A stretch of 64,000 nt of DNA. Origin: Paracoccus saliphilus (GTDB taxonomy: Bacteria > Pseudomonadota > Alphaproteobacteria > Rhodobacterales > Rhodobacteraceae). Numbering within the stretch: position 1 is the stretch's first letter; every line of letters starts with the position of its first letter. The position numbers and the translations under genes were made by a program. The notes under the pieces were generated by a model. The model searched no databases. It was given only the letters and a program-made list of their open reading frames with translations, and was not told where the DNA came from. Shown piece by piece: positions 35,445 through 64,000 of the stretch. The stretch covers positions 3,534,001 to 3,598,000 of the forward strand of contig NZ_CP067140.1 of NCBI RefSeq assembly GCF_028553805.1, in the 5' to 3' direction.

Positions 35445-35487
35445 TCCGGCAACAATCCGAACAATGTGATCTCCCACAGGAAGCAGA

Positions 35488-35632
35488 TGCAACACTTGCG
35501 CGCGTTGCATCGGCACAGCCCACAACACGCAGGCGTTTTACCCAGCAAATGCTGGGAATCTGGCTGCACAACCCGTACACCGAATGTGCACAGTTCGTAC
35601 ACAGAACGTACACCGGCAGCGCGCGTTGCGCG
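35488..35632 (+). repeat. TACAC 11-bp array element, copy 1
   Basis: A modular intergenic element. An inverted repeat TGCAAC...GTTGCA (10-base spacer, 35,488-35,509) is followed by CGGCACAG, a hairpin CCCAGCAAATGCTGGG (35,541-35,556), then tandem units beginning at 35,576: TACACCGAATG, TGCACAGTTCG, TACACAGAACG, TACACCGGCAG. The first three are exactly 11 bases. The element closes with CGCGTTGCGCGG. Copies occur at 52,674 and 63,844. Function unknown. Confidence 0.8.
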
Positions 35633-35749
35633 GCGATTCACCCGCATTCGCGCGAAAGAAGAGACCTCGGCGACCCGAACCCAGAACCGGCGCGCCAAAT
35701 CCAGTACGAAAAACATACTAGATCGGACTGCGATGAAAATGACGCGCCC

Positions 35750-35812
35750 TCTCTTCTTCATGCAAATATCCTCGGGGGGTGCCGGGGGGCAGACAGCCCC
35801 CCGGCCATCGCG
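35750..35812 (-). repeat. GC-rich stem repeat, copy b (short form)
   Basis: Reverse strand: GGCCGGGGGGCTGTCTGCCC, then a C-rich arm, then CGAGGATATTTGCATGAAGA and AGAG. It has the first GC stem and the tail, without the GGTTCTC...GAACC stem of the copies at 40,473 and 53,975. It sits in the leader of the GntR gene, between that promoter and the array element upstream. Confidence 0.65.
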
Positions 35813-35835
35813 GGACGCAATCCCATCGCTCCCGA

Positions 35836-52656: not shown

Positions 52657-52673
52657 GATAGGTCAAGGGCACG

Positions 52674-52820
52674 TGCAACGGCACCGAACGCCGCACCCTG
52701 CCCCGCCGCAACAGGGGCACGGCAGAACGTTGAAAATGCCGGGTTTTCCGCTGCACAAACCGTACACAGAACGTGCACAGCCTGTACACAGGCCGTACAC
52801 AGCTTGTACGCGTTGCGCGG
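52674..52820 (+). repeat. TACAC 11-bp array element, copy 2 (longest array)
   Basis: Five consecutive units start at 52,763: TACACAGAACG, TGCACAGCCTG, TACACAGGCCG, TACACAGCTTG, then TACGCGTTGCG, all in strict 11-base phase. TGCAACGGCAC at the left end is a remnant of the first module. The CCCAGCAAATGCTGGG hairpin is reduced to AAAATGCCGGG. CGTTGCGCGG closes it, as in copy 1. It lies between convergent eryD and the aldolase gene, and no other gene is visible in that gap. Confidence 0.75.
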
Positions 52821-52897
52821 AAACCGTGATGAGCCGGTAAAACTTTTCCTGCAGCAACGGAGATGCCGGAGCGGGGCGCAAGAATGTCCTGGAAAGC

Positions 52898-63786: not shown

Positions 63787-63843
63787 TCCGGATGGCGGGG
63801 CAGCACTGAAACACCGCCTTTCCGGTTGCCGCGCAGCCACGAA

Positions 63844-63991
63844 TGCAACAGCAGCGTGCGTTGCAACGGCACAGGTGACAACAGCAAGTTAATCTTGACC
63901 CAGCAAATGCTGGGTTTTTGGCTTCACAGAGCATACACTGGGCGTACACAACCTGTACACAGAACATACACAGCCAGCGTACGTTGCACGG
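63844..63991 (+). repeat. TACAC 11-bp array element, copy 3
   Basis: Same modules as copy 1: TGCAAC...GTTGCA (63,844-63,865), CGGCACAG, hairpin CCCAGCAAATGCTGGG (63,899-63,914, identical to copy 1), then units from 63,934: TACACTGGGCG, TACACAACCTG, TACACAGAACA, TACACAGCCAG, and the closing TACGTTGCACGG. The first three units are exactly 11 bases. It lies 58 bases after the dtd stop and ends nine bases before the window end. Confidence 0.8.
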
Positions 63992-64000
63992 GATATCATG

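Follow-up and report, generated by a model that had tools for sequence, protein, structure and literature searches.

MatP is a ribbon-helix-helix (RHH)-type chromosomal DNA-binding protein with dispersed sites, and each of these matS sites is a single palindrome, found nowhere but in the terminus region. REP/BIME repeats with their RAYT transposases offer a second comparison among dispersed repeats, and the parC repeats of plasmid R1 are 11 bp long. ParR/parC (R1, pSK41) and omega/parS (pSM19035) are described as combining an RHH binder with tandem direct repeats that lie at the system's own promoters, with one ParR dimer per repeat (PMC5016525). The window analysed here is a 64,000-nt stretch of Paracoccus saliphilus DNA (G000:C1:3534001-3598000) from a source genome of 4.62 Mb in two contigs, C1 (4,378,448 bp) and C2. 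Like ParR/parC and omega/parS, the intergenic element that recurs in it goes with an RHH-family protein (PF14384, 13/13 homologs) and with tandem repeats at that protein's own promoter (35/42 homologs; 5/10 others). Unlike them, it comprises about 70 dispersed chromosomal arrays with a genome-varying word; the protein has no match in 72,556 plasmid records, and its gene is solitary, a ParA-like neighbour having been noticed at one locus only (L428). The sites are dispersed over a chromosome as in MatP/matS (70 on C1, 0 on C2), but they are phased arrays spread over its whole length rather than confined to the terminus (43/70 in the dnaA-side half). The protein carries the BrnA (antitoxin, PF14384) domain of BrnTA toxin-antitoxin systems, but a toxin gene directly upstream was not seen (0/37 called loci with a same-strand gene within 60 bp), and the arrays are dispersed. 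Finally, the elements lie beside 3' gene ends and in mosaics with other repeats as REP/BIME do, but are set apart from these by the 11-bp phase of their array and by the RHH protein that is its likely cognate. We prefer a model in which the proposed complex would work like ParR/parC or omega/parS in DNA contact and like MatP/matS in dispersal.

A sequence-only reading of the window had described three copies of one ordered design, consisting of an inverted repeat, a hairpin, short words in strict 11-base phase and a closing motif. All three copies were present as described, apart from a degenerate hairpin in copy 2. The features are as follows.

35486..35636, + strand: copy 1, whole element (profile R1, E 9.2e-34), beginning 41 bp past the stop codon of the upstream plus-strand gene
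35488..35509, + strand: copy 1 inverted repeat TGCAAC...GTTGCA, a module found in the genus only
35541..35556, no strand assigned: copy 1 hairpin, near-palindrome CCCAGCAAATGCTGGG, a module found in the genus only
35564..35613, + strand: copy 1 array, five words in 11-bp phase, CTGCAC, GTACAC, GTGCAC, GTACAC and GTACAC (starts 35564, 35575, 35586, 35597 and 35608), the proposed binding site of the BrnA-domain protein
35625..35633, + strand: copy 1 closing motif GTTGCGCGG
35702..35720, + strand: module B (AGTAYGAAAAACATACT), downstream of copy 1
35750..35820, + strand: module C (CTTCTTCTTCATGCAAATATCC...CGGGGG...CCATCGCGGGACGCAA), a separate dispersed repeat adjoining copy 1
52672..52822, + strand: copy 2, whole element (profile E 1.8e-26), 15 bp past the stop codon of the upstream plus-strand gene; TGCAAC starts at 52674
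52728-52743: copy 2 degenerate hairpin CGTTGAAAATGCCGGG
52751..52811, + strand: copy 2 array, six words in 11-bp phase, CTGCAC, GTACAC, GTGCAC, GTACAC, GTACAC and GTACGC (starts 52751 to 52806 in 11-bp steps)
63843..63994, + strand: copy 3, whole element (profile E 1.2e-27), 56 bp past the stop codon of the upstream plus-strand gene; TGCAAC starts at 63844
63899..63914, no strand assigned: copy 3 hairpin, near-palindrome CCCAGCAAATGCTGGG
63922..63971, + strand: copy 3 array, five words in 11-bp phase, CTTCAC, ATACAC, GTACAC, GTACAC and ATACAC (starts 63922 to 63966)

Two-word matches with up to three mismatches numbered 27 in the window, against a shuffle mean of 13.5 and maximum of 26, and none of 100 shuffles equalled the observed count. 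A profile built from 24 copies, using sequence and no structure, revealed 70 element copies in the source genome, all on C1 and none on C2. Genome-wide, with up to two mismatches allowed, the hairpin gave 82 strand hits where its reversed control gave 1; for the three-word array the figures were 329 and 0. Counted with the word pattern [GAC]T[AG]CAC, 229 of the 234 successive words across the 70 copies lie 11 bp apart; the longest in-phase chain was two words in 1 copy, three in 5, four in 38 and five in 26. The sequence-only reading had proposed this phase and a profile search of Paracoccus and other Rhodobacteraceae genomes: further copies were indeed found in the source genome and in genus relatives, and the 11-base phase persisted as more copies were aligned. 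Consistently, copies picked by the hairpin alone also carry the words, and the shorter copies among 30 aligned (3/30) are shorter by 11 or 22 bp. From left to right, the element consists of a GCAAC...GTTGC inverted repeat, a CGCAAC word, CCCAGCAAATGCTGGG, two to five phased words and a closing GTTGC; the hairpin is present at up to two mismatches in 54 of the 70 copies, the GCAAC repeat in 63 and a closing GTTGC-type word in 44. The copies are old, with a mean pairwise identity of 56% and a maximum of 75%, and a recent MITE burst was rejected, no pair of copies being more than 75% identical.

The copies sit in mosaics with other dispersed repeats. Module B occurs at 18 places in the genome (up to two mismatches), 16 of which stand downstream of an array element, at 66-71 bp, and share its orientation, and in some other elements its place is taken by a TTCCAT...ATGGAATAA module. 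The end of module C has 81 matches at up to one mismatch, on both contigs, often but not always beside an array element and sometimes inverted.

The first reading had also raised a structured RNA as an alternative. That the elements usually begin just past a stop codon, and that some copies (e.g. copy 3) have T runs after a GC-rich hairpin, would suit an RNA structure or an intrinsic terminator read from the element. However, the alignment fold gave this alternative no support, since RNAalifold on 30 copies returned -5.9 kcal/mol (covariation term -0.22), and only 1 of 12 pairs showed a two-sided change. Rfam, too, had no match in the window except one tRNA elsewhere, and the contexts listed from outside the genus showed no such hairpin. 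An intrinsic terminator was rejected separately, as the T run that follows the hairpin is not conserved among the copies. We therefore consider an RNA role very improbable; with no conserved RNA fold found, the arrays look like DNA sites.

The full element and the phased array differ in their distribution. A stricter profile search of 61 genomes, in which at most 48 candidates were scored per genome, matched 19, all in the genus (the source genome and 18 of 36 others; 0 of 24 outside it), with 0 to 37 copies per relative among the candidates scored. Likewise, when 80 of at least 119 named loci were scored, the 7 profile matches above 33 bits were all from Paracoccus records. The array alone has a wider range: GTACAC-N5-GTRCAC-N5-GTACAC occurs in at least 119 stretches of named genomes, and among the 119 matches listed 21 belong, by title, to other groups, one is unassigned and the remainder come from Rhodobacteraceae/Rhodobacterales of many genera, with no hairpin or GCAAC modules apparent around arrays outside Paracoccus among the contexts listed. 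Exact threefold GTRCAC was found in 12 of 199 Rhodobacteraceae genomes (nearly all one per genus), and the reversed control in 2 others, once each. The earlier family view was thus too narrow: matches to the full element among the 61 genomes and 80 loci stayed within the genus, while the phased array spans many Rhodobacteraceae genera. The array was not, however, taken for a feature of bacteria at large. Several of the non-Rhodobacteraceae matches resemble other 11-bp tandem repeats; Bacteroidota, for example, carry 11-bp phased GTACAC-type tandem repeats of different make-up, such as GTACACACAAG (L115, L150, L185, L196, L202). In viral contigs, 74 stretches fit the three-word array pattern (L207-L280).

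Clustering of the genes that adjoin arrays identified a candidate binder, encoded outside the window at G000:C1:675773-676297, with a product of 175 aa. It contains a BrnA_antitoxin domain (PF14384, E 5.5e-14), which was present in all 13 homologs scanned and which we take to have the RHH fold. PHROGs assigned the protein to an antitoxin family (E 1.4e-10); NCBIfam gave no match for it and a weak one to the segregation protein PrgO for the Paracoccus xiamenensis homolog (E 0.044). A sequence search of solved structures, by single sequence and by profile, returned no relative, and the AlphaFold model is of low confidence (mean pLDDT 57), with an extended segment followed by two helices. An array lies 58-70 bp upstream of the gene in the source genome (60 bp), in G019 and in P. 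xiamenensis, behind three different upstream genes. Apparently the gene is solitary: at the 37 of 42 loci that were called with a purpose-written script (5 were not), none had a same-strand gene within 60 bp upstream, so that no brnT-brnA arrangement was seen, and 2 had one downstream. In tblastn searches the protein matched none of 72,556 plasmid records (E 1e-5) and none of 50,697 phage records.

At E 1e-10, homologs are present in 15 of 61 relatives and 38 of 199 family genomes, 52 genomes together. Within the genus, 11 of the 14 genomes that carry seven or more elements have the protein, versus 4 of the 23 with none to two (Fisher 4e-4), where the cut of seven was chosen after the counts were seen and one of the 4 is a partial match. 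Across the family, 7 of the 12 genomes that carry GTRCAC arrays have it, versus 31 of the 187 that do not (Fisher 0.002), and these 31 would be expected to bear other words. The protein was not detected in the element-rich genus genomes G006, G018 and G029 (the last 84% complete), nor in 4 of the 12 GTRCAC family genomes (G077, G105, G120, G186), G232 being counted as having one. No homolog adjoined the arrays examined in G077 (11 arrays), G120 (4), G186 (3), G105 (1) or G167 (3).

We examined the upstream regions of 42 homologs from the 52 genomes with a protein match, the other 10, more divergent, being tested separately. All 42 were read for phased arrays, and their words differ: GTACAC/GTGCAC, ATGCAC, GTTCAT, GTATGG, GTCTGG and a few others. 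Autocorrelation at -150 to -50 over the 42 homologs peaked at lag 11 (0.433, z 21) and lag 22 (z 15), the next being lag 9 (z 4.4), and the signal remained after removal of the 13 GTRCAC genomes (lag 11 z 17.5, lag 22 z 9.6). In the control region from -400 to -250, lag 11 had z 0.5 and the other peaks were of the coding type; in the first 150 coding bases it had z 3.6, with similar or larger values at other lags. A three-unit 11-bp array was significant (shuffle p<=0.02) in 35 of the 42 promoters and not in G007, G015, G075, G144, G155, G182 and G190. Five of the ten divergent homologs passed the same test (G127, G147, G211, G237, G247) and five failed it (G063, G093, G118, G124, G148).

The word at the promoter pointed to the genomes in which that word also recurs in dispersed arrays. 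Threefold GTATGG was found in all five genomes labelled with this word by their promoters (strand hits: G122 125, G191 69, G156 16, G104 9, G182 7) and elsewhere only in G128 (8) and G167 (3), with none in the 192 others of the 199 genomes; the association (5/5 versus 2/194) gave Fisher 8e-9, the reversed control matched once, in G156, and the words had been read from promoters before the search, without a written prediction list. Threefold GTCTGG gave 24 strand hits in G215 and 6 in G230, both named beforehand, and was absent as a dispersed array from G094 and G075, which carry the same label (2/4 labelled versus 4/195 others of the 199 genomes, Fisher 0.004); the other matches were one each in G096, G178 and G231, and four in a single tandem run in G179, where the control also gave four. 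G125, whose promoter word is the related GTATGAC, has no dispersed GTATGG arrays.

We aligned 41 homologs over 118 columns, with the words entered before the alignment was seen and the four word classes grouped afterwards, and tested each column for association with the word; 11 of the 41 rows, with unclear, mixed or other words (including G125, G190, G170 and G131), were left out of the test. Residue 56 was lysine in 9 of 9 GTATGG/GTCTGG rows and arginine in 21 of 21 rows of the other three classes (z 12.4). Residue 60 was arginine in 12 of 12 GTRCAN rows, alanine, glycine or serine in 7 of 7 ATGC rows and leucine or methionine in 2 of 2 GTTCAT rows, and was mixed in GTATGG/GTCTGG (z 8.3). 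These two residues, which we take to be alternate-face positions of the base-contacting strand of RHH proteins, ranked first and second of the 118 columns by permutation z, and 0 of 500 permutations reached either. Columns 31, 76, 85 and 86 likewise were reached by 0 of 500 permutations, because relatedness among the rows inflates such a test. A tree built from the other columns, with the strand left out, requires at least 12 changes of word class and at least 7 of K56; independent pairs on supported branches agree for K56 and word in 4 of 4 cases, too few for significance. Outside the four classes the correspondence is looser: G125 (GTATGAC) and G190 (GTATG, 12-bp spacing) carry R56, the two GTCTT genomes disagree (G170 K56, G131 R56), and K56 also occurs with GGCTGC (G247) and TCGGAC (G211). 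Outside the sample, two genomes without a protein match at E 1e-10 have a divergent homolog next to an array, and its residues are those that the code expects, lysine at the code position in G128 and R,T,R in G232. In G127, G237 and G147, a GTRCAC array lies upstream of an R,T,R homolog.

Taken together, the BrnA-domain protein very probably binds the arrays and regulates its own gene. The array would be a multi-copy DNA site for a solitary RHH protein of the BrnA-antitoxin domain family, each six-letter word being contacted by the paired beta-strands of a single dimer. With words 11 bp apart, neighbouring dimers would line up along the same face of the DNA and could cooperate, so that each array would hold a nucleoprotein patch of three to five dimers; the array copy upstream of the protein's own gene suggests self-regulation. 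The other 69 copies may be chromosomal anchor sites of the same complex, intergenic and mostly beside 3' ends, and the recognition word would have switched repeatedly between lineages together with the strand residues, with the dispersed arrays following. The sequence-only reading had envisaged a cooperatively binding protein or a nucleoid factor. It has gained a candidate with an array at its own promoter, co-occurrence with the arrays and strand residues that follow the word; cooperativity and a nucleoid role, like binding and autoregulation themselves, are what we infer from this pattern.

With gene calls from a purpose-written codon-score script rather than a standard gene finder, 53 of the 70 copies have a same-strand upstream neighbour, and 42 of these 53 start within 50 bp past its stop codon. 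Sixty-eight elements lie in 33 convergent, 29 co-directional and 6 divergent gaps, compared with 15, 86 and 58 among 159 element-free gaps of at least 50 bp, an enrichment of convergent (Fisher 3e-10) and a depletion of divergent gaps (Fisher 1e-5). Such placement beside stop codons and in convergent gaps is consistent with a transcription insulator, in which the array-bound protein would be a roadblock to transcription, halting or punctuating it where genes end, above all between convergent genes, and would repress its own gene likewise. However, promoter avoidance alone would produce the same gap bias, and the orientation of elements in co-directional gaps is not clearly fixed (19 with versus 11 against). 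Moreover, Rhodobacteraceae arrays from named records are mostly co-directional among the matches listed (52 of 86, with 25 convergent and 9 divergent), as are 31 of 40 arrays in further genomes, some of them counted more than once. We consider an insulator role unlikely, though still a live reading. Operators of particular genes, as in an ordinary transcription-factor regulon, are an improbable explanation: one array does lie at the gene's own promoter and others lie close upstream of some genes, but divergent gaps hold only 6 of the 68 elements, flanking genes mostly differ between species, and the word switches often.

On the scale of the whole chromosome, 43 of the 70 copies lie in the dnaA-side half (dnaA at C1:349), a weak bias (p 0.03), and the longest stretch without elements (444 kb, 2.12-2.56 Mb) is roughly opposite dnaA. 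A replication-directional element was rejected, the strands being balanced (33 leading versus 37 lagging, direction taken from dnaA). Even spacing was rejected too, because the gaps have a CV of 1.14 versus 0.98 for random positions.

Element positions are mostly not shared between species. A flanking gene (at least 57% identity) common with a copy in the source genome was found for 4 of 19 elements in G023 and 3 of 20 in G019, comparisons that covered 19 of 30 and 20 of 37 elements, respectively, and left out lower-identity paralogous matches; of the 4 shared places in G023, 3 are on the same side at near-identical distance. This turnover, the variation from 0 to 37 copies among relatives (at most 48 candidates scored per genome) and the company of other dispersed repeats would all be accounted for if the elements were multiplying operator copies, like REP or MITE sequences, that have no cellular role and titrate a protein that only regulates itself. 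In the source genome, G014 and G019, moreover, the gene's upstream region is itself a full element, with GCAAC repeat, hairpin and array; in seven other Paracoccus genomes shown it has the array only. Turnover and the identity of element and operator region in those three genomes keep such spreading a live explanation, but we regard it as doubtful. There are no recent copies (identity at most 75%, mean 56%), yet copies picked by their hairpin keep the words; in several genera, arrays made of the word proper to the genome occur again without any of the other modules; and some places are shared. Among the matches listed, arrays recur 20-24 bp after a gene presumed to be gltD in four records, two of them Paracoccus, and 25-36 bp before a presumed lpd in three. 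These sites recur across records and genera (L109, L137, L156, L168; L097, L144, L164).

For the cellular role of the array-bound protein we tentatively prefer, given binding, chromosome (nucleoid) organisation, a judgement that falls a little short of an even one. The preference is based on a gene that looks chromosomal and solitary and on sites that are many, multi-word and mostly off promoters; the turnover of positions between species would be odd for a fixed chromosomal role. A possible variant, offered with reserve, is chromosome-wide labelling, in which a solitary RHH protein would coat tens to more than 100 phased arrays that mark a lineage's own chromosome, the word being recoded repeatedly together with two residues and the dispersed sites. 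Such recoding can be likened to PRDM9 or centromere turnover in eukaryotes, and we know of no bacterial chromosome-labelling system of this kind. Titles and the opening parts of abstracts, mostly of open-access papers, mention nothing on such arrays or this protein in Rhodobacteraceae. For dispersed intergenic arrays in an abundant bacterial family, the present analysis proposes a probable binding partner, along with a protein-DNA code that can be read, and it gives an orphan 'antitoxin' family what looks like a function on the chromosome. A site set that has been recoded repeatedly together with its binder brings an old question directly within reach of testing, namely how specificity changes when dozens of sites must follow. 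If the complexes do organise the nucleoid, they would constitute a sequence-specific chromosome-organising system beside ParB/parS and MatP/matS.

Two loci have neighbours of interest. In G215 (L428 357-1329), a ParA-like gene and a small lipoprotein-like gene are divergent from the BrnA-domain gene; tblastn of the ParA-like gene against other RHH loci gave no match, and the small lipoprotein-like gene has matches in L429, L432, L434 and L438. In G023 (L418), the BrnA-domain gene lies beside a gene that we take to be serB, and in the source genome the place 101 bp before serB (C1:4209523) is taken by an element that lacks the gene, perhaps a former place of the BrnA-domain gene.
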